Virus record (IMG/VR): IMGVR_UViG_3300046167_000284
Coordinates: 1 to 29,800 of that record
Source: a virus
Length of the DNA: 29,800 nucleotides
Strand: one strand, 5' to 3'
The notes under the pieces were generated by a model. That model made no database searches and was not told the DNA's origin. It saw nothing but the letters and a program-made list of their open reading frames with translations. The stretch's first letter is position 1; the number at the start of each line of letters is the position of its first letter. This document shows, piece by piece, positions 2,063 to 29,102 of the stretch. A program made the position numbers and the translations under genes.

Positions 2063-2208
2063 CCATAGATGAAGCCAAAAAGGTTGGGTTGCTGCTCTTC
2101 GATGTTCCAGGATTAAGTCCTTTTTTAAGACACGAGGGAGGGAATAACTACTCCATTGAACTCATTTTTGAGGGCAAAAGCTACACGATACAAAAAGAGC
2201 GTTATTAA
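2059..2208 (+). CDS. Small hypothetical protein after TerL
   Basis: 49-codon ORF whose ATG overlaps the terL stop in an ATGA arrangement, so it could be translated by coupling. The protein begins MTIDEAKKVG and ends SYTIQKERY. It has a short helix-like start and beta-like end, with no motif I recognise. Its stop codon lies inside the first bases of the duplicated control block (CGTTATTAACA, from 2200), so the left border of that block touches the coding sequence. The overlap and ordinary codon use favour a real gene, but it is short and has no family assignment. Confidence 0.5.
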   Translation: MTIDEAKKVGLLLFDVPGLSPFLRHEGGNNYSIELIFEGKSYTIQKERY

Positions 2209-2339
2209 CATTTGCCTGTTAATTTTCTTTTTGTTCCTCCTATATATAGAGAAAAAAAATAAAAAATAAAGGTATTTGTCTTTGTATTTATTTCCCTACG
2301 GAGGCATAGCCTCCTCCGTAGGTAAATAGATACTTGCAT
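2200..2339 (+). repeat. Control block copy A (direct repeat of 20719-20860)
   Basis: About 140 bases nearly duplicated at 20719-20860 in the same orientation. In order: dyad ATTAACA-6nt-TGTTAAT (arms identical in both copies, spacer different); T-rich stretch TTTTCTTTTTG; CTATATATAG; a long A-rich tract; TTTGTATTTATTTCCCTA; a hairpin; and TAGGTAAATAGATACTTGCAT split across 2319-2339. Conserved pieces alternate with divergent ones, as expected of protein-binding and RNA or DNA structural elements under selection. It lies between the terL operon and a single small gene. Promoter/operator is my first guess; a replication origin is an alternative. Confidence 0.85.
2295..2322 (+). promoter_or_regulatory. 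Hairpin of control block A
   Basis: A perfect 10-bp stem, CCTACGGAGG (2295-2304) with CCTCCGTAGG (2313-2322), and an 8-base loop. An alternative inner pairing GGAGGC-ATA-GCCTCC is also possible. It is not followed by a T run, so it is not a standard intrinsic terminator. The copy at 20816-20843 keeps the outer CCTA/TAGG pairs but has a different inner stem that still pairs (CGGGCC with GGCCCCG, one bulge), which suggests the structure is what is conserved. Confidence 0.7.
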
Positions 2340-2414
2340 CTTTGACAAACGCTGGGCACTTGTTTCGTGTTTGTTTTTTTGTATATTTAGAGGACAACAA
2401 CAAAACACTTGATT

Positions 2415-2615
2415 ATGAAAGAAACGAAATTAGTTATTGGCGATTACTTGCTATCGAAAAGATTCGGGTGGCAGTACAAGATCATCAGCATCAGAAACGG
2501 TGTTGCTGTTTTGCAAGATATCGTGCGTGAGAATGTGCGGATGAGATTTACCGTTCGCGCCTTGCGTAATAGGATTGAAATAGATAGCTTTGCTCACTCA
2601 CCGCATCCATTTTAG
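2415..2615 (+). CDS. Small beta-rich hypothetical protein, single-gene transcription unit
   Basis: 66 residues from ATG 2415. A TTG two codons upstream (2409) is the alternative start. The protein has short alternating beta-like strands (KLVIGDYLL, WQYKIISIRNGVAVLQDI, RFTVRALRN), resembling a small SH3/Tudor-type barrel; I cannot name a family. It stands alone between control block A and a strong terminator at 2661-2692, so it is probably transcribed as its own short message. That isolation, and the fact that the same control block precedes the replication genes, makes a regulatory role possible; this is inference only. Confidence 0.7.
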   Translation: MKETKLVIGDYLLSKRFGWQYKIISIRNGVAVLQDIVRENVRMRFTVRALRNRIEIDSFAHSPHPF

Positions 2616-2660
2616 TTTTGGTTTTGGTTTATTAATTTCTATTAGGTTCTTAGCGGTGCA

Positions 2661-2692
2661 AACCTCCTCATTGATTTGAGGGGGTTTTTTTA
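2661..2692 (+). terminator. Intrinsic terminator before the head operon
   Basis: AACCTCCTC (2661-2669) pairs with GAGGGGGTT (2678-2686): nine base pairs, one of them G-U, with an 8-base loop. It is followed by a run of seven T (2685-2691). It separates the 66-codon gene from the portal/protease/capsid operon. Confidence 0.88.
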
Positions 2693-7201: not shown

Positions 7202-7530
7202 TGATAGACCAAGCTGGACAACTGGATCGTAGAATCACTATTCAAACCTTTAGTGAGACTACGGATAACTTTGGGCAAGAAGTGAAGAGCTTCTCTACCC
7301 TTGCTTCAGTATGGGCCAACGTGGTTGAGAAAGTAGGGCGCGAGGGTGAAGATGGTGAGATGATAGCAGCTACTAAAAAGGTTGAGTTTATCATTCGCTA
7401 CCGCACCGATGTTGATGAGGAGATGCGTATAGTATACAACAACAATACATATAAGATTCAAGCGATACAATCCGCAGATGCCCGCAAGGCATTCCTTAAG
7501 ATTGTATGCTTATGGTCAGATGCGCAGTAA
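7201..7530 (+). CDS. Head-tail joining protein (SPP1 gp16/HK97 gp7-like)
   Basis: 109 residues. AGQLDRRITIQTFSETTDNFGQ at the start, followed by SVWANVVE and VEFIIRYRTDVDEEMRIVYNNNTYKIQAI, is typical of the Phage_H_T_join family. These stopper proteins close the connector after packaging and receive the tail. The stop codon overlaps the next gene (TAATG at 7528). Confidence 0.92.
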   Translation: MIDQAGQLDRRITIQTFSETTDNFGQEVKSFSTLASVWANVVEKVGREGEDGEMIAATKKVEFIIRYRTDVDEEMRIVYNNNTYKIQAIQSADARKAFLKIVCLWSDAQ

Positions 7531-8066
7531 TGGAAAACGTAAAGGTAAGAGTTGAGGGTGTCGCTGAGGTGATGAGAAAGCTCCGCAAACTTGATGATAG
7601 ACTCAAGAAGAGGATACTCAAGAAAGTAGGGAAGAAATCACTGCCGCCTATGGTTGACTCTTATAAGCGCAACATCACTGATGCAGATGAGGTGTTCAAA
7701 GTATATCGAAATGGCAAGATAGCCTATGAGATAAAGCCTGGACAACTGCGCAGAAGTGTTGGTATAAAGACACCCAAGCACCTACAAAAGAAAGATGTAG
7801 TAGGTATGAGTGTTGGGCCACGCAGAAGCGGTAGGTATAAAGATGCAGAGAAAGGCGGTTGGTACGCTGGTATGATAAACTTTGGCTGGTTAAGAGTTGG
7901 AGGCAATCAAGGAAAGCGATACCAAGGTCAAAACTTAAACTTTGCGCAGAAAGCAATGGCTGCTGCAAAGACAAGGGTAAATGTGAGGTTTGTCCGTGTA
8001 TTTAGAACGGAAACCACAAGAGAGATAAATAAGCTCAAGTTTGGGCAAAGAATGGGCTTGAAATGA
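7530..8066 (+). CDS. HK97 gp10-like tail completion protein
   Basis: 178 residues from ATG 7530, chosen because it makes a TAATG overlap with the previous stop; an in-frame ATG at 7506 would extend into the upstream gene. VRVEGVAEVMRKLRKLDDRLKKRILKKVGKK, GQLRRSVGIKTP and the basic C-terminus fit the HK97-gp10_like family, which works at the head-tail interface or tail terminus. It overlaps the next gene by four bases (ATGA). Confidence 0.88.
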   Translation: MENVKVRVEGVAEVMRKLRKLDDRLKKRILKKVGKKSLPPMVDSYKRNITDADEVFKVYRNGKIAYEIKPGQLRRSVGIKTPKHLQKKDVVGMSVGPRRSGRYKDAEKGGWYAGMINFGWLRVGGNQGKRYQGQNLNFAQKAMAAAKTRVNVRFVRVFRTETTREINKLKFGQRMGLK

Positions 8067-19948: not shown

Positions 19949-20119
19949 ATGTTTAATAGAATCACTGAAAACACAAAAACCTCTATTGCTGGGGGAGTTA
20001 TCTTTATAACTGGCATCGCTCTTATCATTATGGATAAAGCTACACTCACTGAGTTTGGCGCTTTCCTTGGTGTAGCGTTCGCTTTATTATTTAGTAAAGA
20101 CCCTAAAACAAGCAAGTAA
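19949..20119 (+). CDS. Small holin-like membrane protein
   Basis: 56 residues, starting MFNRITENTKTSIAGG, with two short hydrophobic spans (about 14-29 and 35-48) and a basic end (DPKTSK). It begins one base after the preceding stop, within the lysis cassette. Size and topology resemble small phage holins. It is too short for family assignment by eye. Confidence 0.65.
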   Translation: MFNRITENTKTSIAGGVIFITGIALIIMDKATLTEFGAFLGVAFALLFSKDPKTSK

Positions 20120-20230
20120 ATGGATGATTGGGAAGACAGCTTCAACAGCTTTATTGAGGAATTAGAAAACCAGGAGCAACCACAATGCTCTATAGAAAAC
20201 CCTGAGGAATGCGACTCTTGTGGAAGTTAG
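20120..20230 (+). CDS. Tiny acidic Cys-containing protein
   Basis: 36 codons, MDDWEDSFNSFIEELEN, then a Cys-containing end (PQCSIENPEECDSCGS). The ATG follows the previous stop immediately, and its end overlaps the lipoprotein gene by 22 bases in another frame. The tight fit favours translation, but nothing indicates a function. Confidence 0.45.
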   Translation: MDDWEDSFNSFIEELENQEQPQCSIENPEECDSCGS

Positions 20231-20625
20231 GGGTCGTCGTTACAGCATTGATGCTGACAAGCTGTGGTGCATCGTGGCACCTAAAGCGTGCGATTGCAAA
20301 AAACCCAGCGCTTGCTCGGGACACGGTTCTAAGGATCGACACAACCATAATAAAGGAAAGCGTTGAGCTTAGAGACACCATATTTATTAAGGAGGTCGAT
20401 ACCATTAGGGTAGTAAAGAATGGAGTGGTTGTTGATATTAGACGGAGCTTTGACACTATTGAGGTTGATGTGGAATGCCCTCCCGATACGATTCGGATAC
20501 TTAAAGAGGTACCGATGGTTCAGATTGTACCTGAAAAGAAAGAGCGTAATTTAGCACTTGGTGGAGTTATAGGTTTTATCTTAGCGCTTGTACTTATCCG
20601 TGTCGCTGGTCGATTAATAAAATAG
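20209..20625 (+). CDS. Lipoprotein with C-terminal membrane anchor (u-spanin candidate)
   Basis: 138 residues. It begins with a lipoprotein signal peptide (MRLLWKLGVVVTALMLTSCGAS; lipobox LTSC, Cys19). A periplasmic domain of about 95 residues follows, rich in short beta strands with DTI/DTIRV repeats. It ends in a hydrophobic segment (LALGGVIGFILALVLIRVAG, about 115-134) plus basic residues. An N-terminal outer-membrane lipid anchor with a C-terminal inner-membrane span is the defining layout of unimolecular spanins such as T1 gp11, which fuse the two membranes in the last step of lysis. Last gene of the lysis operon, followed by a terminator. Confidence 0.72.
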   Translation: MRLLWKLGVVVTALMLTSCGASWHLKRAIAKNPALARDTVLRIDTTIIKESVELRDTIFIKEVDTIRVVKNGVVVDIRRSFDTIEVDVECPPDTIRILKEVPMVQIVPEKKERNLALGGVIGFILALVLIRVAGRLIK

Positions 20626-20665
20626 AATACATTCGGCAGCTTTAGCTGTTGTTTTGTTGTTGTGT

Positions 20666-20701
20666 GAAGAGGGAGTTGATGTTAAAATCGGCTCCCTTTT
20701 C
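20666..20701 (+). terminator. Terminator-like hairpin after the lysis cassette
   Basis: A long stem, GAAGAGGGAGTTGAT (20666-20680) with ATCGGCTCCCTTTTC (20687-20701), gives 15 base pairs including three G-U and a 6-base loop. The 3' arm carries the T-rich stretch (TTTTC). It marks the end of the late operon before control block B. A weak CAGCT-TT-AGCTG hairpin (20637-20648) lies just upstream. Confidence 0.7.
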
Positions 20702-20718
20702 TATTGCTCCAAACCTCA

Positions 20719-20860
20719 CGTTATTAACAAAAACCTGTTAATTTTCTTTTTGCTGCTGCTATATATAGAGAAAAAAAATAAAAAATAAAGAAATATCTGC
20801 ATTTGTATTTATTTCCCTATCGGGCCTTGTGGCCCCGAGTAGGTAAATAGATACTTGCAT
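20719..20860 (+). repeat. Control block copy B (direct repeat of 2200-2339)
   Basis: Within the 382-base stretch between the lysis and replication modules. Shared with copy A: CGTTATTAACA; CCTGTTAATTTTCTTTTTG; CTATATATAGAG plus an A-rich tract; TTTGTATTTATTTCCCTA; and TAGGTAAATAGATACTTGCAT (20840-20860). The hairpin here, CCTA-CGGGCC-TTGT-GGCCCCG-TAGG (20816-20843), has a different inner stem from copy A but still pairs. The dyad ATTAACA/TGTTAAT spacer differs (AAAACC here). It probably controls the replication module, as a promoter/operator or as an origin element. Confidence 0.85.
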
Positions 20861-20869
20861 TTAAGGCAG

Positions 20870-20941
20870 ATGAAAAAGGTAGCGCAAAGCATCTTGCAAA
20901 GCATCTCGATCCTGGCTGTGTACAATGGTGTGGATAATTAA
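20870..20941 (+). CDS. Possible 23-codon leader peptide
   Basis: ATG 20870 opens 23 codons, MKKVAQSILQSISILAVYNGVDN, just 10 bases after control block B. It may be a leader peptide or chance. The rest of the stretch to 21007 holds one promoter candidate and otherwise nothing recognisable. Confidence 0.3.
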   Translation: MKKVAQSILQSISILAVYNGVDN

Positions 20942-20955
20942 TTCTTTGTTGATTG

Positions 20956-20985
20956 TTGTGAATTAAATTTTATTGTGTAGATTTG
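20956..20985 (+). promoter_or_regulatory. Bacteroidota-type promoter before the replication module
   Basis: TTG (20956-20958), a 19-base gap, then TAGATTTG (20978-20985) matches the -33 TTG / -7 TAnnTTTG layout known for Bacteroidota housekeeping sigma factor, with normal spacing. The first downstream ATG is at 21008. Of all sites here this fits the host consensus best, so it may be read by host polymerase early in infection. Confidence 0.7.
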
Positions 20986-21007
20986 GGTATAACCAAAAAC
21001 AACTAAA

Positions 21008-21133
21008 ATGAAAAAGTACAACACATTCGAGAACATCGGCTACATCACTACGCTCTACATTCTATTAGGTATAGGCACATTCGCATTCTTATGCGTTTAC
21101 AAGGCACTTCTATGGGCCTTTGGTGTAATGTAA
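21008..21133 (+). CDS. Small single-span membrane protein
   Basis: 41 residues, starting MKKYNTFENIGYITTLYILLG, with one long hydrophobic span (about 11-40). First gene after the promoter candidate and 85 bases before the SSB gene. No family recognised. Early phage membrane peptides are often host-takeover factors, but nothing in the sequence shows that. Confidence 0.55.
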   Translation: MKKYNTFENIGYITTLYILLGIGTFAFLCVYKALLWAFGVM

Positions 21134-21170
21134 CCATATTAAGATTAAAGCATTCACATAGCGCTGAAAA

Positions 21171-21204
21171 TGCCTCACAGCGTTACTAATTAACAACTGA
21201 GGCA
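21171..21204 (+). promoter_or_regulatory. Inverted repeat before the SSB gene
   Basis: TGCCTCA (21171-21177) and TGAGGCA (21198-21204) form a perfect 7-bp inverted repeat with a 20-base centre, ending 14 bases before the SSB ATG. It could be an RNA hairpin near the ribosome entry site, giving translational autocontrol by the single-strand binding protein, or an operator. It is not followed by a T run. Confidence 0.45.
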
Positions 21205-21218
21205 ACATTACAACAATT

Positions 21219-21770
21219 ATGGCAAAGCTAGATTTTGCAAAGGGCGTGTCCGCGGTATTAACGGGCACAACCAATTGGGCACAACTCACTGAGAAAAGTG
21301 GCCCTAACAAGATGAGCGGTAAGTATCAAGTAGAACTTACCCTTGATGCGGAGAGCATCAAAACACTTGAATCAATGAAGATTCTTGAGCACGTTAACAT
21401 TAAGCGCCAAGATGGTACGCTCAAGTATGAGCATCCGACGGTGCGCTTAAAGACCAACAACCCGCCACAACTTTGGGACACCTCAAAGATGCCGTTTGAT
21501 GACCTCATCGGCAATGGGACAACGCTACGCGCCAAGGCCTTTATTAAGAGTTGGGAGATGGCGGGAAAGAAAGGCCTTACGGCATACATCAACAAGGGCA
21601 TCATCCTATCCTTGAATGATGTGAATGGCGCTGATGATGATGACCTTTGGGAAGATGTAAAGGTTGAGCCATTGGTAGCGGGCCAAGAACAAGTCCCTAC
21701 ATCAAAGCCCGATGTAGCTACAGCCTCGGAAGCATTCGCTACTGAGGAAGATGATGATTTGCCATTCTAA
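21219..21770 (+). CDS. Single-stranded DNA-binding protein (gp2.5/DUF2815-like)
   Basis: 183 residues. The body FAKGVSAVLTGTTNWAQLTEKSGPNKMSGKYQVELTL, TVRLKTNNPPQLWDTSKMP and GNGTTLRAKAFIKSWEMAGKKGLTAYINKGIIL fits the OB-fold phage ssDNA-binding proteins of the gp2.5-like/DUF2815 group. It ends in a strongly acidic tail, EEDDDLPF, the classic SSB tip that recruits other replication proteins. It opens the replication operon and overlaps the next gene (TAATG). Together with the exonuclease at 22979 it could also support recombination by strand annealing. Confidence 0.88.
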   Translation: MAKLDFAKGVSAVLTGTTNWAQLTEKSGPNKMSGKYQVELTLDAESIKTLESMKILEHVNIKRQDGTLKYEHPTVRLKTNNPPQLWDTSKMPFDDLIGNGTTLRAKAFIKSWEMAGKKGLTAYINKGIILSLNDVNGADDDDLWEDVKVEPLVAGQEQVPTSKPDVATASEAFATEEDDDLPF

Positions 21771-22348
21771 TGATTGCAAATGATATGATAAAAGAGGTGC
21801 GTAAGCATTTCGGTATTGACCCATCTCTCCGCACACGGCGGAGGGATGTGGTTGATGCTCGGAACGCTATTATGGTATCTCTACGTTCCATTCATACGAT
21901 GAATGAGATCGCTCGCTTTTTTCCGTACAAGGTGCGCAGAGATGGTGAGGTATTCTATAAGGGTATGAGCCATTGCTCAGTGATTCACGCGGTGAAGCAA
22001 CATCAAATACGCTACCACAGCGACCCATCAGAACGCCAAGTATCCTTCTACCTGTACTGCGAGATTTATGACTATTGCAAGAACTACCTCGGTGACAACA
22101 CCTACAAGCCGATGTCTCAATTAGAGATGCGTGAGGAAATAGGTAAGGCACGTTTTGAGGCAAAGGAAAAGAAGAAAGAGATGGCAGAGCTGCAACGCGC
22201 ATTTAAGGATGAAATCAAGGAGATGAAAAGAGAGATGCGTATGCTGCAAACGGCAGTGCGCAAGGTGACCTCCGAGCGCGACCATTACAAGACGGCCTTC
22301 ACTCAAATGTATAAGGAGAAAAAAGCAAGAGATGAAAAAGCTATTTAG
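21770..22348 (+). CDS. DnaA domain IV-like DNA-binding protein with coiled coil
   Basis: 192 residues. Residues about 22-80 (RTRRRDVVDARNAIMVSLRSIHTMNEIARFF ... MSHCSVIHAVKQH) follow the DnaA C-terminal helix-turn-helix pattern. The signature H-x-S-V-I-H-A corresponds to HTTVLHA, the DnaA-box recognition helix. There is no AAA+ domain. The C-terminal half (about 118-190) is a long charged coiled coil suited to dimerisation. Its place between SSB and nucleases suggests an origin-binding or replication-regulating factor. An operator-binding role at the duplicated control blocks is an attractive inference, not shown. Confidence 0.75.
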   Translation: MIANDMIKEVRKHFGIDPSLRTRRRDVVDARNAIMVSLRSIHTMNEIARFFPYKVRRDGEVFYKGMSHCSVIHAVKQHQIRYHSDPSERQVSFYLYCEIYDYCKNYLGDNTYKPMSQLEMREEIGKARFEAKEKKKEMAELQRAFKDEIKEMKREMRMLQTAVRKVTSERDHYKTAFTQMYKEKKARDEKAI

Positions 22349-22526
22349 AAAGGTGGCGCATAAGCGCTACATTGAAAAGTACATCACTGAGCTACGCTGG
22401 GAAACACTAAACACGGTGATAACGGCAAGCAGAACGCAGTGGAATGATGATGTTGTGAAGCTGTTGGATAACAACGCGCAGCTTATCCGTAAATACGAAA
22501 GGAGAAGAAGATGGGTGAAGTTTTAG
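22332..22526 (+). CDS. Small basic hypothetical protein
   Basis: 64 residues, helical and basic (MKKLFRKVAHKRYIEKYITELRW ... YERRRRWVKF). The start overlaps the end of the DnaA-like gene and its end overlaps the next gene. No family recognised; nucleic-acid contact is possible from the charge. Confidence 0.65.
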   Translation: MKKLFRKVAHKRYIEKYITELRWETLNTVITASRTQWNDDVVKLLDNNAQLIRKYERRRRWVKF

Positions 22527-22831
22527 ATAAGTACAATCTATTCAGAGAGGCCGTTAAACTTGTGGCGCTGCTACAGGCATCTCTTGAGCAGATGGATGAG
22601 TTAAAGGGCACCAAGTTCTACAAGCAAAAGGTAAAGCATCTGATGAGCCAGCTCGAGAGAGAGTTGGAGAAGCACCTGGTTAACCCATTGAACGCCCTGG
22701 ATCAACAAGACCCTGAACTACTAACCAAGATTCAGTACAATGTAGAGCTTGTTCTTGGTATGGACTTGGAAGAGCTGGCAATGCTCCGCCAAGAGATTGA
22801 TGAATATAGAGATACTAAAAAAGATGAGTAA
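22511..22831 (+). CDS. Helical hypothetical protein of the replication operon
   Basis: 106 residues, all-helical with heptad-like spacing (LFREAVKLVALLQASLEQMDELKGTKFYKQKVKHLMSQLERELEKHL) and an acidic second half. Similar proteins are common in Bacteroidota phage replication regions, without known role to me. It overlaps both neighbours. Confidence 0.72.
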   Translation: MGEVLDKYNLFREAVKLVALLQASLEQMDELKGTKFYKQKVKHLMSQLERELEKHLVNPLNALDQQDPELLTKIQYNVELVLGMDLEELAMLRQEIDEYRDTKKDE

Positions 22832-22979
22832 AGAAAGCCACGAAGCATTCGATAAGATGATGGGGTATGCAATGGGCACCGTCAATGAATTGGTAGAGAA
22901 AGCCAAGGAGATAAACCGCAACAGCATCATTGCACTAAACAACCGCGACCTTAAGGAGAACGGAATAGAAAGAGACTGA
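22824..22979 (+). CDS. Small helical hypothetical protein
   Basis: 51 residues from ATG 22824 (MSKESHEAFDKMMGYAMGTVNELVEKAKE), overlapping the preceding stop. In-frame sequence upstream to 22749 is inside the previous gene and not convincing. The ending NRDLKENGIERD overlaps the exonuclease start. Function unknown. Confidence 0.65.
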   Translation: MSKESHEAFDKMMGYAMGTVNELVEKAKEINRNSIIALNNRDLKENGIERD

Positions 22980-23596
22980 TGAAGATATTAGAACTACAGC
23001 AACGCAGTAAGGAATGGTTTGAGGCACGCCTCGGAGTGATTACTGGATCGAGAGCAAAGAGCGTGTTCTCTAAAAACAACCTCCCATTTATTGATGAGCT
23101 TATCGCAGAGCGCCTCACAGGTGTTATCCCCGAGGGGTTTACATCTGATGCAATGCGCCACGGCATACTCTATGAACCCGAAGCCATAAGAGTATATGAA
23201 GAGACAACGGGCAGAATAGTTGATGAGATAGGCTTCTGCGTACATAAGGACTACCCTTTCATTGCCGTATCTCCCGATGGCCTTATCAATGTGGGCGGTA
23301 AGTATAAAGGTGCCGTTGAGGTGAAGTGCCCCAGCAGTAAGAAGCACATTGAGTATATGCGCATCGGTAGGGTGCCAAATGAGTACAAATATCAAGTCAT
23401 CCACTACTTCGTAGTAAACGAAGATTTGGAGTGGTTAGATTTTGTATCTTATGACCCGCGCCTTAAGAATTGCAAGTTGCACGTTCACCGAGTATTCCGT
23501 GATGATATGATGCACGAGATAACTGAGGCGCTTGATGCCTACCTTAAGTTCTACGATAAGCTAAAGAAGTACGAAGATGGCATACTCGGAGAATGA
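22979..23596 (+). CDS. YqaJ/lambda-type exonuclease
   Basis: 205 residues. QRSKEWFEARLGVITGSRAKSVFS opens the fold and MRHGILYEPEAI (Glu67) follows. The PD-(D/E)XK core is SPDGLI (Asp100) with AVEVKCP (Glu114, Lys116), and YKYQVIHYF supplies the YqaJ-type Gln139. Enzymes of this family digest the 5' strand of duplex ends to give 3' overhangs for annealing or repair. The SSB at 21219 may act as its partner, as no RecT/Bet-type annealase is recognisable. Confidence 0.9.
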   Translation: MKILELQQRSKEWFEARLGVITGSRAKSVFSKNNLPFIDELIAERLTGVIPEGFTSDAMRHGILYEPEAIRVYEETTGRIVDEIGFCVHKDYPFIAVSPDGLINVGGKYKGAVEVKCPSSKKHIEYMRIGRVPNEYKYQVIHYFVVNEDLEWLDFVSYDPRLKNCKLHVHRVFRDDMMHEITEALDAYLKFYDKLKKYEDGILGE

Positions 23597-23717
23597 TTTA
23601 AAAGCCCTGTGTTGGGAAGAGGCCAAGGTCTACTTCAGCGCAATGGATCGTAGCCACATCTCAAGAATGATTGAACACGCCGTAAGGAAACAATATGCAG
23701 ATACCGAAGAATCTTAA
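23577..23717 (+). CDS. Small hypothetical protein between nucleases
   Basis: 46 codons, starting MAYSENDLKALCWEEAKVYF and ending HAVRKQYADTEES. It fills the only gap between the exonuclease and the VRR-NUC gene and overlaps both. Composition looks protein-like (amphipathic helices). Without it 23597-23694 would be an unusual uncoded gap in this operon. Confidence 0.55.
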   Translation: MAYSENDLKALCWEEAKVYFSAMDRSHISRMIEHAVRKQYADTEES

Positions 23718-24129
23718 AGAACTCAGTGCCCTGGCCACGCAGCTAAAGGCAGAGAAGCACCCCGATGTACCGCCCTTTGCTTTGGTAAAGAAGCGCTTCA
23801 AGGATACCACCGCCAATGAACTTACAAAGACTATCATTTGGGATATGTACCACATCCGCGAGGGTGTAGCCTACCGCATCAACAATGGGGCGGTCTATGA
23901 TGTAAAGCGTAAGGTGTACCGCGCGGGAGTACAAAAGAAAGGCGTGCCCGATATCATTGGCATCATCAATGGCCGATTCATAGGTATAGAGGTGAAGATT
24001 GGTAAAGACCGCCAAAGCGCTGACCAAAAACTTATAGAAAAGGAAATCAATGCCGCTGGCGGTGTGTATTTTATAGCCAAATCGTACGATGACTACCTAA
24101 GCAAAATCAATGAATTCACACATAACTGA
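23695..24129 (+). CDS. VRR-NUC domain nuclease
   Basis: 144 residues. GVPDIIGIINGRFIGIEVKIGKDRQSADQKLIEKEINAAGGVYFIAKSYDDY is a full VRR-NUC core (Asp86, Glu99, Lys101, Gln in SADQ). The family includes structure-specific nucleases, and phage members are thought to trim or resolve DNA intermediates. The N-terminal ~45 residues are unassigned. It overlaps the next gene. Confidence 0.9.
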   Translation: MQIPKNLKELSALATQLKAEKHPDVPPFALVKKRFKDTTANELTKTIIWDMYHIREGVAYRINNGAVYDVKRKVYRAGVQKKGVPDIIGIINGRFIGIEVKIGKDRQSADQKLIEKEINAAGGVYFIAKSYDDYLSKINEFTHN

Positions 24130-24469
24130 TGGGGCAATATCTGAACTGCAAGTAGCTGCTCTATTATTAGAGCACGGCTGGGCCGTGGCGTTTCCCTTTA
24201 CACATCAAAACCCTTACGATCTTATCATCTACAAAGATGGTAAGGTAAGGACGGTGCAAGTGAAAAGCGGAACATTTGCCGACAACCAGCACACGGTGAT
24301 TAAAGCCGATTTCAACAACTATGCTGAGGTCGACTACATTGTACTGCACGATAGGGTACAGCATCAGTTTTACATCTTCAGCAAGGGGGAGCTGAACAAC
24401 CGCCGCACCATAACAATGAACCCCAAGAGACACACACAACAGCTCAACAACTGGAAACGAATTAAATGA
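24110..24469 (+). CDS. PD-(D/E)XK endonuclease-like protein
   Basis: 119 residues. The order Glu12 (ISELQVAALLLEHGW), Asp37 (NPYDLIIYKDGK), Gln50-x-Lys52 (VRTVQVKSG) is the PD-(D/E)XK pattern of Holliday-junction-resolvase-like and intron-endonuclease-like families. It directly follows the VRR-NUC gene and overlaps the primase gene by four bases (ATGA). It may serve as a resolvase before packaging. The exact substrate cannot be told from sequence. Confidence 0.82.
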   Translation: MNSHITDGAISELQVAALLLEHGWAVAFPFTHQNPYDLIIYKDGKVRTVQVKSGTFADNQHTVIKADFNNYAEVDYIVLHDRVQHQFYIFSKGELNNRRTITMNPKRHTQQLNNWKRIK

Positions 24470-26433
24470 ATACGACAACAATAGCTAAGAAATACCTTGC
24501 GCACGGCTTTAGCCCCATCCCACTTATTGATGGGGAGAAGCGCCCAAGCATAAGGAATTGGCAGCAGTATGGTGAGGAGCCTATGGGACTCCAAGAAGCC
24601 GAGCGCCTCTTCCAAAATACGGGGAGCATAGGTTTAGTGATGGGCTTCGATGGCATCCAATGCCTTGATATCGATGCCAAGCACTTTAGAGGTAAGGAGT
24701 ATGAGGTCTTCTGCGAGAGGCTAGAAGAGGAATCTCCTGGCCTTAAGGATAAGATGATTATACAAACCACGCGCAGCGGTGGCTTCCATTGGATATTTAA
24801 ATGCGATGAGATAGCGGGCAATCAAAAGTTCGCTCGGAATATAGATGGTGAGGTGACTTTTGAAACGAGAGGCCGAGGTGGTCAAATCGTTACCTACCCA
24901 AGCAAAGGGTACAAGATACTCGGGAAGATAACCAACGTTAAGCGAATCAGCCCCGTGGAGCGCGACGTTATCTTCCGAGTAGCCCGTACAATGGATGAGA
25001 TGCAAAAGGAAGTGGTTGTCGAAAGCAAGCGCATCGGTGATATTGAAACGCAAGACCAAACGCCGTGGGGTGAGTTTAGAGCAACACACACGGCCCTTGA
25101 TATCTTACAGCGCTACGGCTGGAGCATAGTAGGGGAGAGCAGCAAGTACATCTATCTGCTGCGCCCAGGATCAACGGACAGCAAAACGAGTGGCGTGATA
25201 TTTAAAGACACCGAGCTGTTTTGGCCGTGGACAACAAGCAGCGCCTTTGAGGCTGAGATGCCATACGATGGATTCCAATGCTATACCTTATTAGAACACG
25301 GCGGTAGCTTTGATGATGCCATCAAGGATATCAGAGAACAAGGCTATGGCAAGCGCTATGAGTTAAGTGCACCGAATGACTTTAATATAGATTTAGATGA
25401 TGAAGAAGTACAGGAAGAGATGGGCCAGCTATTGGCAAAGCTACGCGTTGACTCTACTATTGAGGTATCCCAACCTCCTAAAGCTCTCGAGATGGTTTTT
25501 GGTCAAAATAGCTACATCATCGGCTCCTTTGGAAACTTTAGCCTCGTTCAAGGAAAAGCGAAGAGCCGCAAGAGCTTCTTCCTATCAGCACTCGCAGCGG
25601 CAGCATCATCGGACTCAATGGTATGCGAACACCTCCGAGGGTACATCTACCCGCGTAAGGTCATATATATTGACACCGAGCAAGGAGACTTCCACGCCGC
25701 TAAGGCGAAGAAGAGGGTGCACGAGATGGCTGGACTGCAAGGCAACCTCAACTACGACCATATCGAGTACATCAAGCTCCGCAGCTTGGATACAAACGCG
25801 CTCCGACTCGCTGCAATAGATTACATCTTTAGAACGGAGGAGAACATCGGGTATATGGTCATCGATGGTATTGCTGATGTAGCCTCTAAGGGTGTGAATG
25901 ATGAGGAGGAAGCCACAGCAATAGCCTCTAAGCTACTTAAATGGACAGCAGAATACAACTGCCATATCACCGTCGTGCTGCACGAGAACAAGAACGATAG
26001 AAATGCTAAGGGCCACCTTGGGCAGTATATCGTTCAGAAGAGCGAATCCACTTTTAGCGCTAAGAAGAGTGAGCACAATAGAGACATCACTGAGATCACA
26101 CCCGAGTACACAAGGAACATAGAACCGCCAGCGATTGAGATGAGTATTGGTGGCTTTGATCTTGTTGAGTTCTCAGAGGTTGAGGTTGATGAGTTCTACA
26201 ACAAAACACGCGTTTGGACTGATGAGGATAAGCACCGCATTGCCGCCAAGATATTAGGTAAGAGCAAAGGCGATGCTGCTACCTTCATACGCGATACGGA
26301 GGACTGCAAGCGCAAGGATGCTGAGAAGGTTTTGGCATTGATGGAAGAAAATAGTATAATACATTGGGATGGTAAGCGCCCCAAGATTGTAGCGCTTGGC
26401 CCTAAAGATGGTGAAGAGCCTATTGATTTATGA
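24466..26433 (+). CDS. Primase-polymerase / RepA-like helicase fusion
   Basis: 655 residues. The N-terminal prim-pol domain (about 1-175) has KRPSIRNWQQY, the metal-binding CLDIDAKHF (Asp68, Asp70), SGGFHWIF (His108) and TFETRGRGGQIVTYPS. A middle domain (about 205-300) contains ILQRYGWSIVGESSKYIYLLRPG. A RecA-like ATPase follows, with the Walker A-like GKAKSRKS (363-370), YIDTEQGD and Walker B YMVIDGIADV, ending VVLHENKNDRNAKGHLG. It should prime and unwind DNA at the fork. No phage DNA polymerase is present, so host polymerase probably extends. Confidence 0.88.
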   Translation: MNTTTIAKKYLAHGFSPIPLIDGEKRPSIRNWQQYGEEPMGLQEAERLFQNTGSIGLVMGFDGIQCLDIDAKHFRGKEYEVFCERLEEESPGLKDKMIIQTTRSGGFHWIFKCDEIAGNQKFARNIDGEVTFETRGRGGQIVTYPSKGYKILGKITNVKRISPVERDVIFRVARTMDEMQKEVVVESKRIGDIETQDQTPWGEFRATHTALDILQRYGWSIVGESSKYIYLLRPGSTDSKTSGVIFKDTELFWPWTTSSAFEAEMPYDGFQCYTLLEHGGSFDDAIKDIREQGYGKRYELSAPNDFNIDLDDEEVQEEMGQLLAKLRVDSTIEVSQPPKALEMVFGQNSYIIGSFGNFSLVQGKAKSRKSFFLSALAAAASSDSMVCEHLRGYIYPRKVIYIDTEQGDFHAAKAKKRVHEMAGLQGNLNYDHIEYIKLRSLDTNALRLAAIDYIFRTEENIGYMVIDGIADVASKGVNDEEEATAIASKLLKWTAEYNCHITVVLHENKNDRNAKGHLGQYIVQKSESTFSAKKSEHNRDITEITPEYTRNIEPPAIEMSIGGFDLVEFSEVEVDEFYNKTRVWTDEDKHRIAAKILGKSKGDAATFIRDTEDCKRKDAEKVLALMEENSIIHWDGKRPKIVALGPKDGEEPIDL

Positions 26434-27278
26434 TAACGGTAAACAGCTTGAGCGGAGGTAAGACCTCAGCATATATTGCAGCGCACTACCCAGCGGACTA
26501 TGATGTATTCTCTTTGGTGCGTATTGAAGATGAGAACTGCAAGTTCCCCGATGAGAAGATACGCAAGGAGGTTGAGGATAGAATCCAAGCGCCATTCATT
26601 GGTACAGCAGAAGATGATACCATCATCTACACTATGCTCGACCTTGAGCAGTACATCGGCAGAGAAATAACTTGGGTTACAGGTAAGACCTTTGACCAAA
26701 TAACAACAAGAAAAGACAAGGTCTACCTTCCTAATAAGGTGCAACGCTTCTGCACCGTCGAGATGAAGATTGAACCTATGTTCTATTGGTGGGCAGAAAA
26801 CGTTGGCGAGCCAATAGAAACAAGAATAGGTTTTAGAGCTAATGAGATGCGCAGAGCAAAGAATATGCTTGAGCGCTGCAATGAAGATGGCCTCAGTGTA
26901 TTTAAAGCAACCTTTGAGAAGCATAAGAGCGGAAGAAACAAATGGGAAGATGTGCCCTACCAAAAGCCCGTGTTTCCTTTAATAGATAGCGGTATCTTTA
27001 AAGACAACGTTGAGCAGTATTGGATCGATAAGCCCGTGCGCTTTGCTTGGATGAACAACTGCGTTGGATGCTTTCACAAGCAACCGCTCCTACTAAAGAA
27101 GATGTGGGAGAAGCACCCAAACAAATTGGAGTGGTTTGCAAAGAGAGAGCGCGACAGCATCAATGGCGCAACCTGGCGCTCTGATGTTACCTATGATGAG
27201 GTGAAGTCTTGGAACAGCCAATTCGACCTCTTTGATGATGATTTTAATGAATGCGACAGCGGATACTGCGGAATATGA
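26430..27278 (+). CDS. PP-loop ATPase (PAPS reductase-like)
   Basis: 282 residues. The PP-loop NSLSGGKTSAY (5-15) of the adenine nucleotide alpha-hydrolase/PAPS reductase superfamily; GFRANEMRRA (134-143), similar to the conserved arginine motif of PAPS reductase and DndC relatives; Cys108 (RFCTVEMKIEP), Cys211-x-x-Cys214 (NNCVGCFHK) and Cys275/Cys280 at the C-terminus, which could hold an iron-sulfur cluster or zinc. Sulfate reduction in a phage is unlikely to be the purpose; sulfur transfer to DNA, tRNA or a nucleotide is more plausible. It overlaps both neighbours, so it is co-expressed with replication genes. Confidence 0.85.
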   Translation: MITVNSLSGGKTSAYIAAHYPADYDVFSLVRIEDENCKFPDEKIRKEVEDRIQAPFIGTAEDDTIIYTMLDLEQYIGREITWVTGKTFDQITTRKDKVYLPNKVQRFCTVEMKIEPMFYWWAENVGEPIETRIGFRANEMRRAKNMLERCNEDGLSVFKATFEKHKSGRNKWEDVPYQKPVFPLIDSGIFKDNVEQYWIDKPVRFAWMNNCVGCFHKQPLLLKKMWEKHPNKLEWFAKRERDSINGATWRSDVTYDEVKSWNSQFDLFDDDFNECDSGYCGI

Positions 27279-27806: not shown

Positions 27807-27949
27807 CATTTCCCGACAGCTACCTTGATGACGGTAACCCGTGGACTACGGACAGCGAATGCTGCGCAGAGTGCGGCAAAGAAACTGAGAACTATGCACT
27901 GATTGATTCAGAACCAGTGTGCCAAGACTGCGAGCATAGTGTCTATTAA
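27803..27949 (+). CDS. Small zinc-ribbon protein
   Basis: 48 codons, MTFPDSYLDDGNPWTTDSECC, then AECGKETENYALIDSEPVCQDCEHSVY. The CxxC pairs (CAEC, CQDC) form a compact zinc ribbon. Start overlaps the previous stop (ATGA), and the end overlaps the methyltransferase. Function unknown. Confidence 0.65.
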   Translation: MTFPDSYLDDGNPWTTDSECCAECGKETENYALIDSEPVCQDCEHSVY

Positions 27950-29102
27950 GATCAATCAACTCGACCTCTTTAGTGGTATCGGAGGATTCCACCTTGGCTT
28001 TGAACGTGCTGGCTATGAGGTTACGAGTTACTTCTCGGAAATAGATAAGCACGCAGTAGCAGTATATCAACACAAATTTAAAGATGCAACCTATGTCGGA
28101 TCAGTTACTGATGTTCGAGGAGCAGACCTCCCCAACATCGACCTCATCACTTTCGGTTCTCCTTGTCAAGACTTTAGCCTCGCTGGAAAGCGTAAAGGGA
28201 TGGACGGAGAACGAAGTAGCCTTATCCTTGAAGCAATACGCCTTATCACCGAATGCCAACCAAGAGCTTTTGTGTGGGAGAATGTTAAGGGAACATTCAG
28301 CTCAAACGATGGCGAAGATTTTGCGGCAATCCTCCAAGCCTTTAGCAACATTGGGGGCTATAGACTTGAATGGCAACTGCTTAATACAGCGTGGTTTCTA
28401 CCACAAAACCGAGAGCGCATCTACCTTGTCGGATATTCTACAACCCCCACAGGAGATTGGGGAGGAGTTTTTCCTGTCGGAGAATGCCGTGGAAAGAATA
28501 ATAGTGACACAAGAAGCGAGCACCAAACCGCTAACACCCTCACAACAAGATACTTCGCAAGCACATCTCAAGGATCGTACATTGGTGAGTGTGACGAAGT
28601 TCTCAAAATAAAAAGCGCCAACAAGAAAGGATACCAAGAGGCTGAAGATGGTGATGCAATACGGTTGTACCAACCCAACAGCGAAACGCAAAGAGGAAGA
28701 GTAGGTAAAGGTGTAGCGCATACCTTAGAGACTACTAGGCAGCAAGGTGTGGTGCAGCCTTACTATGAAGACATAGAAATAGGAGATATTCGATACGATG
28801 AAGGAGGCTTTAGGCCTCGTAAAAATGGAATAGCGCCAGCTTTAGTAGGGAGTAATGATAAGAGCGGAACGCCTAACTGCTCAATCCTTAAAAACAATAG
28901 TACCTACCGCATCCGTAGGCTTACACCTATAGAGTGTGAGAGGCTCCAAGGCTTCCCCGATAACCATACCGAGTACGGCATCTATGATGGTGAGGTGAAG
29001 AAGATGAGTAACACCCAGCGCTATAAGCAATGCGGTAACGCAGTTACCGTTGATGTAGTCAAGGCAGTAGCACAGCAACTAATACCTATCTACAATGCCT
29101 AA
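27939..29102 (+). CDS. DNA (cytosine-5) methyltransferase
   Basis: 387 residues from the GTG at 27939. This start overlaps the previous stop and lies just before motif I; a TTG at 27903 is an alternative. All core motifs are present: I LDLFSGIGGFHLGFERAGY, IV FGSPCQDFSLAG (catalytic Cys), VI FVWENVKG, VIII PQNRERIYLVGY, IX RRLTPIECERLQGFP, X QCGNAVTVDVVKAVAQQL. The variable target-recognition region lies between VIII and IX. It transfers methyl groups to C5 of cytosine in a specific site. No cognate restriction enzyme is recognised beside it, so it is probably an orphan that protects phage DNA from host restriction. Target unknown. Confidence 0.93.
   Translation: MSIKINQLDLFSGIGGFHLGFERAGYEVTSYFSEIDKHAVAVYQHKFKDATYVGSVTDVRGADLPNIDLITFGSPCQDFSLAGKRKGMDGERSSLILEAIRLITECQPRAFVWENVKGTFSSNDGEDFAAILQAFSNIGGYRLEWQLLNTAWFLPQNRERIYLVGYSTTPTGDWGGVFPVGECRGKNNSDTRSEHQTANTLTTRYFASTSQGSYIGECDEVLKIKSANKKGYQEAEDGDAIRLYQPNSETQRGRVGKGVAHTLETTRQQGVVQPYYEDIEIGDIRYDEGGFRPRKNGIAPALVGSNDKSGTPNCSILKNNSTYRIRRLTPIECERLQGFPDNHTEYGIYDGEVKKMSNTQRYKQCGNAVTVDVVKAVAQQLIPIYNA

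Follow-up and report, generated by a model that had tools for sequence, protein, structure and literature searches.

Does a short inverted repeat that resembles a DnaA box, and that occurs twice in a phage genome, mark a replication origin, or is it a site of transcriptional control? The DNA that raises this question (the window) is a stretch of 29,800 nucleotides, positions 1 to 29,800 of the IMG/VR record IMGVR_UViG_3300046167_000284. The first-pass annotation had pointed out the dyad ATTAACA-N6-TGTTAAT and had proposed that a DnaA domain IV-like protein of the same phage binds it to control replication or early transcription.

The dyad is the upstream end of a repeated element

ATTAACA-N6-TGTTAAT is present exactly twice in the window (Table 1), as had been claimed, with positions shifted by one base relative to those first given. 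It was absent from dinucleotide shuffles of the window (chance expectation 0). Among 25 perfect 7-bp dyads with spacers of 3–9 bases no other is repeated with identical arms and spacer length, and a recurrent dyad of any kind arose in 1 of 60 first-order Markov simulations. The arms of the two copies are identical and the spacer changes, again in line with the earlier description: TTTGCC and AAAACC differ in four of six bases and share the final CC. With its flanking bases, the left arm reads TTATTAACA, which departs from the DnaA box TTATNCACA (TTWTNCACA) at position 6 only, the single difference noted before; strictly, the dyads thus contain no DnaA box. The 9-mer TTATNAACA is found three times in the window against 1.65 expected and is therefore not significant by itself.

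Missed in the first-pass annotation, the dyad forms the left end of a near-repeat of about 150 bp, in which it is followed by a T/C-rich spacer, TATATATA, an A-rich stretch and a long hairpin. Relatives were gathered by a scan for the hairpin pattern, via relatives of terL, by an operator-promoter scan and via relatives of the DnaA-like protein, and the element was found on about 40 related IMG/VR contigs from uncultivated phages. With a covariance model built from nine copies, every one of the 21 contigs that were searched from end to end gave a match. Both sites are spanned by five related contigs (G001, G002, G003, G005 and G006), and each of these carries two full-length copies on the same strand, 16–19 kb apart in the linear orders that show both directly; the remaining contigs have one copy and mostly do not span both sites. 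Copy 1 lies between terL and the portal gene, followed by a 66-aa ORF that is absent from the most distant clade, and copy 2 lies between the end of the late operon and the genes for SSB-like and DnaA-like proteins. Both contexts are invariant among the related contigs, with the exception of one short contig, L073. There (L073:4000-4600), a single element joins the end of the late operon to the 66-aa ORF and the portal gene, a junction that stems either from misassembly or from recombination of the two direct repeats with each other, giving a late-module circle or a duplication.

Among 50,697 phage records, no isolate relative was found by blastn with positions 20000-24000 or by tblastn with the DnaA-like protein or the 66-aa ORF. 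The exact operator-promoter pattern had no match in GTDB genomes, and consequently no host was assigned; it is the style of the promoters that suggests a host group of the Bacteroidota type.

Table 1. Positions in the window of the two element copies and of neighbouring features.
Feature	Position	Strand	Basis
Dyad, copy 1	2204..2223 (arms 2204-2210 and 2217-2223)	+	kept in related contigs
Left arm of copy 1, near-DnaA box TTATTAACA	2202-2210	+
T/C-rich spacer and TATATATA (2241-2248), proposed activated promoter P_A, copy 1	2226..2248	+	fixed spacing; putative function
A-rich stretch and structured RNA, copy 1	2249..2355	+	covariation, fold
P1, copy 1	2275-2280/2344-2349	+
P2, copy 1	2284-2293/2324-2333	+
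C-U mismatch, copy 1	2294/2323	+
P3, copy 1	2295-2304/2313-2322	+
P_B1, second promoter-like site TTG-N19-TATATTTA, before 66-aa ORF	2360..2389	+	read directly; putative
66-aa ORF after copy 1 in the window's clade	2415..2615	+
Strong intrinsic terminator at the end of the copy-1 unit, ~440 nt downstream of TATATATA	2660..2692	+
Terminator-like GGGAG...CTCCCTTTTCT ending the late operon, directly upstream of copy 2	20671..20701	+	read directly; similar in block-2 relatives
Dyad, copy 2	20723..20742	+
Left arm of copy 2, near-DnaA box TTATTAACA	20721-20729	+
T/C-rich spacer and TATATATA (20760-20767), proposed P_A, copy 2	20745..20767	+	fixed spacing
A-rich stretch and structured RNA, copy 2	20770..20876 (P1 20795-20800/20866-20871)	+	covariation
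P_B2, TTGTGAAT overlapping TTG-N19-TAGATTTG, Bacteroidota-type, before early operon	20956..20985	+	putative
Proposed dyad-binding protein, DnaA domain IV-like over residues ~1-110, C-terminal helix of ~75 aa	21770..22348	+

Half-sites at a fixed distance from a putative promoter

The right arm is separated from TATATATA by 15 bp in 34 of 36 distinct elements and by 14 bp in the other two. The spacing between the arms, in contrast, varies from 5 to 7, and in one clade the half-sites are direct instead of inverted repeats (TTGTGAGT-TTC-TTGTGAAT). Together, these three observations argue for protein half-sites at a promoter and not for an RNA stem; because of the clade with direct repeats, the dyad was rejected as an RNA hairpin, and the stem energies of the dyad among relatives range from -0.4 to -10.2 kcal/mol. 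Across clades, the left arms read TTATTAACA, TTACTAACA, TTACGAACA or TTATCAACA, and the half-sites fit TTAYN[A/C]ACA, a relaxed DnaA box in which position 5 is free like the N of the DnaA box. Both copies of one genome have the same right-arm variant, TGTTAGT in G001 and TGTTTAT in G002; TGTTAAT is the right arm in the window, G003 and G006.

An inverted repeat followed by TTTTCTTTTTG could also be read as the intrinsic terminator of the upstream operon, and in two relatives (L028 and L032) the stem indeed reaches -10 kcal/mol. In the window, however, it amounts to about -3.5 kcal/mol only, four relatives (L042, L036, L047 and L053) have no such stem, and a strong terminator already precedes copy 2. 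With a stem that is weak and not conserved, we rejected the dyad as terminator and regard this function as highly improbable. The position of copy 2 directly after the late terminator implies that its RNA most simply starts inside the element.

If TATATATA serves as -10 box, the centre of the dyad would be located near -40, where class II activators bind. A scan for sigma-70 promoters gave no call at P_A and no excess over shuffles, and TATATATAG at P_A is unlike the TANNTTTG box of Bacteroidota. A TANNTTTG-like box (P_B) lies between the hairpin and the next ORF; at copy 2, TTGTGAAT lies over its -33 region, and the -7-like box of P_B1 recurs in relatives. In both contexts this better box follows the hairpin, so that the main mRNA may lack the hairpin.

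A DnaA-type DNA-binding domain joined to a long helix

The proposed binding protein had been described as the DnaA box-recognition helix fused to a coiled coil, without an AAA+ domain, and our analyses agree with this description. The 192-aa protein matches Pfam Bac_DnaA_C with an E value of 7e-6, which is below the gathering score, and 11 of 12 aligned proteins, the one from the window among them, match this family; no AAA+ domain was matched in the window protein. AlphaFold2 yielded a pLDDT of 60 for the protein alone and a mean pLDDT of 87 with 12 relatives, and the model comprises a DnaA-IV-like helical domain, a beta-hairpin in the turn of the HTH and a helix of 75 residues. The best realigned PDB chain was 1J1V (E. 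coli DnaA domain IV with DNA; Z 9.9), with 89 residues aligned within residues 1-109 at 22% identity, followed by the M. tuberculosis DnaA-DBD (Z 9.4) and another DnaA (Z 7.4). It was this realignment that ranked DnaA first: Foldseek by itself placed the DnaA-DBD ninth (E 0.7), and a sequence profile search of the PDB returned coiled coils only. DnaA initiators combine an AAA+ domain III with domain IV; the window protein consists of a domain IV-like part and one long helix.

In DnaA, R399 is inserted into the minor groove over TTA, the recognition helix lies over TNCACA, and D433 and H434 are among the base-contacting residues (PMC5742627, PMC7561715). The fold and the TTAYN[A/C]ACA half-site are shared with the DnaA box and domain IV (1J1V), and the equivalents of R399, R407 and H434, as assigned from our own alignment, are invariant. 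Differences from DnaA and its box are the A at position 6 in the window, the serine that replaces D433 in the clade of the window, and the lack of the AAA+ domain. The recognition helix starts with SHC[ST] in the window clades, with DHTT in DnaA and with DHST in a distant clade, and the right arms are TGTGAAT (equivalent to TTCACA) in the DHST clade and TGTT in the SHC[ST] clades. The left arms of the DHST clade, TTATCAACA, do not track the change in the helix. As it is essentially one phylogenetic contrast, the correspondence between helix and box is suggestive only; if it is real, changing S to D at the start of the recognition helix should alter the choice between TTATTAACA and TTATTCACA.

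The protein was found in 13 of 22 contigs searched whole, and searches for relatives added further carriers; by gene order, we read the contigs without it as not reaching its locus. On contigs that cover the locus, its gene belongs to the operon that has one copy of the element at its head, in agreement with the claim that it is encoded nearby. In L084 (G001, contig 3300046167_000415; ~7291-7858) the frame is split into two overlapping frames, by a frameshift or a sequencing error. From these comparisons the link between protein and dyad emerges strengthened, and we consider it plausible. Neighbouring genes encode a gp2.5-like SSB (21219-21770), a RecE-like exonuclease (22979-23596) and a Prim-Pol and AAA_25 protein of 655 aa (24466-26433), which is a probable replication protein; a PAPS-reductase-like protein and a C5 cytosine methyltransferase (26430-27278 and 27903-29102) are also encoded in the early region.

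DnaA domain IV homologues of phage origin without AAA+ domain are known as GafY from the Caulobacter GTA (also HdaB) and GafA from the Rhodobacter GTA, which activate phage-like gene clusters as well as their own operon (PMC9632790, PMC11150451, PMC9638019). Activators of this type contact RNA polymerase (RpoD or omega). The window protein has the DnaA-IV-like DNA-binding domain of this type (PMC9632790). The GafY site is located around -113 to -123 and IHF is needed, whereas here the boxes adjoin TATATATA. In comparison to GafY and GafA, the window system adds the beta-hairpin insertion in the HTH turn, the long coiled coil and a structured RNA. Neither of the two ORFs that follow the protein gave a GafZ/DUF6456-like Pfam match, and a literature search for phage DnaA-like activators returned nothing on point. 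Lambda-type and Mu C operator dyads at early and late phage promoters likewise consist of paired half-sites on the -35 side; in the present case, the fold is DnaA-type and the orientation of the half-sites varies between clades.

The hairpin is a structured sense-strand RNA

The consensus of the hairpin consists of P1 (5-8 bp), an asymmetric internal loop, P2 of ~10 bp, a 1x1 mismatch and P3. A nine-sequence MAFFT alignment, made beforehand, contained 13 covarying pairs and showed an invariant U-G wobble in P2. In 33 distinct sequences, whose alignment was fitted to the model and hence favours the structure, 91.7% of cells pair and 23 of 25 pairs show changes on both sides (compensatory), compared to 14.9 in shuffles; the covariation score was 0.588 versus 0.174 for shuffled alignments and at most 0.169 in slid controls. 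When each strand was folded separately, the plus strand gave 40 G-U pairs and the minus strand 8, and the fold of the plus strand was more stable in 21 of 22 representatives. A DNA hairpin would not show such an asymmetry, which therefore disfavours a DNA structure and indicates an RNA of plus sense. The hairpin is a structured plus-sense RNA of ~75 nt.

Searches of Rfam (release 15) with the element from the window and eight further loci gave no match at E<=1 and E<=0.5, and membership in a known RNA family was thus rejected; a literature search for a matching phage RNA motif gave nothing on point. The hairpin is a previously uncatalogued RNA family, and what is new is the RNA and its combination with operator, promoter and protein. 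Every genome that spans both sites has retained two copies, so the RNA must serve a useful purpose.

Replication origin or transcriptional control

An origin at the dyad, where the DnaA-IV-like protein, with or without host DnaA, would bind and the A/T-rich DNA would unwind, agrees with the DnaA-like half-sites, their A/T-rich flank and the location of the protein gene beside the SSB-like and Prim-Pol genes. The A/T-rich DNA after the dyads is indeed present; the unwinding element that the first-pass annotation saw in it is better read as promoter spacer, -10 box and RNA leader, and the A/T-rich part belongs to a sense-strand RNA element. A replication role of the dyad is further disfavoured by the strict, promoter-like distance of 15 bp to TATATATA, by the position of the element at the head of transcription units, with a sense-strand RNA following, and by the distance of 16-19 kb between the copies, one of which lies between terL and portal. 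An origin would have a cluster of boxes beside an unwinding element; here there is one dyad per copy and two copies per genome. At neither 2.2 nor 20.7 kb does the GC skew show an inflection, which is a weak argument as nearly all genes run one way. A short distance downstream of copy 2, at 20917-20937, there is a tandem TGTGTACAA-TGG-TGTGGATAA, the second of which is a perfect DnaA box (TTATCCACA). Equivalent pairs with 12-bp spacing are present in G002 and G003, but G001 and G009 lack them. The tandem boxes are not part of the repeated element and represent a better candidate for an origin than the dyad. Nothing that we tested points to a replication origin at the dyad, and we consider such an origin distinctly unlikely.

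The reading we prefer, with a probability of about 0.5, is that both copies are an operator-promoter-leader-RNA element under the control of a GafY/GafA-like phage DnaA-IV protein. The dyad would be a two-half-site operator for the coiled-coil protein, which would bind the paired half-sites on the -33/-35 side of an activator-dependent promoter with TATATATA as -10 box. The P_A transcript would be short, with an A-rich 5' end followed by the hairpin. Copy 2 heads the early/replication operon that encodes the protein itself, which would result in autoregulation, and copy 1 heads a small terminator-bounded unit between terL and portal. The RNA would most likely be a cis-acting leader that affects RNA polymerase and elongation, translation or mRNA stability. 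That the protein binds the DNA, that it activates and does not repress, where transcription starts and what the RNA does are inferred; activation is preferred because the -10 box does not resemble the TANNTTTG box of the host and the nearest functional precedents act as activators, GafY being a homologue of DnaA domain IV that activates phage-like gene clusters (PMC9632790, PMC11150451).

The same architecture could be used by an autorepressor, in which case the RNA would do no more than stabilise short mRNAs at their 5' end. The gene for the protein lies downstream of copy 2, the boxes overlap the -33 regions of P_A and P_B2, which is a common place for a repressor, and stable 5' hairpins can protect mRNAs. 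However, the lack of a good host -7 box in P_A fits activation better, and the conserved internal loop, C-U mismatch and U-G wobble suggest more than a mere 5' cap, so that this alternative appears possible but somewhat unlikely.

Phage HK022 likewise has two copies of a structured RNA, putL and putR, each close to where a transcription unit begins (PMC9378689), which makes a put-like role attractive. Processive antitermination by a hairpin that modifies RNA polymerase would allow copy-1 transcripts to pass the terminator that closes this unit and enter the late genes, and a terminator of -16 to -21 kcal/mol is indeed present at the end of the copy-1 unit in most relatives scanned. However, put RNA is an antiterminator of ~70 nt that acts in cis and has two stem-loops and a triplex, whereas the window RNA is a single long hairpin (P1-P2-P3) with an asymmetric internal loop, and after copy 2 no strong terminator was found on the plus strand. 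Moreover, the portal gene is preceded, after the terminator, by a conserved promoter of its own, TATATTTG, which has a GATACTT/AAGTATC dyad, so that readthrough is not needed for the portal operon, which weakens antitermination as a necessity. We therefore consider a put-like function unlikely. That the DnaA-IV activator recruits polymerase and the nascent hairpin then reprograms it (antitermination or anti-pausing) in the early and terL-portal units is a similarly doubtful extension of the preferred reading.

The portal promoter (2701-2745) itself lies between GATACTT...AAGTATC-type arms, which co-vary among relatives (GATAGTT/AACTATC in G003) and constitute a second, different operator. The 66-aa ORF, which forms a unit with its own promoter and terminator between terL and portal, encodes a conserved basic protein (GDYLLSKRFGWQYKIISIRNGVAVLQDIVRENVRM); searches of Pfam and PDB found no relative and no family for it.

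Biological implications

The hairpin represents a strongly covarying RNA family that has no Rfam entry. DnaA domain IV-like transcription activators are known mainly from alphaproteobacterial gene transfer agents. If the proposed binding holds, the same device would be used by free phages of a different, apparently Bacteroidota-type group, and the box variants of these phages could be compared with the recognition helix.
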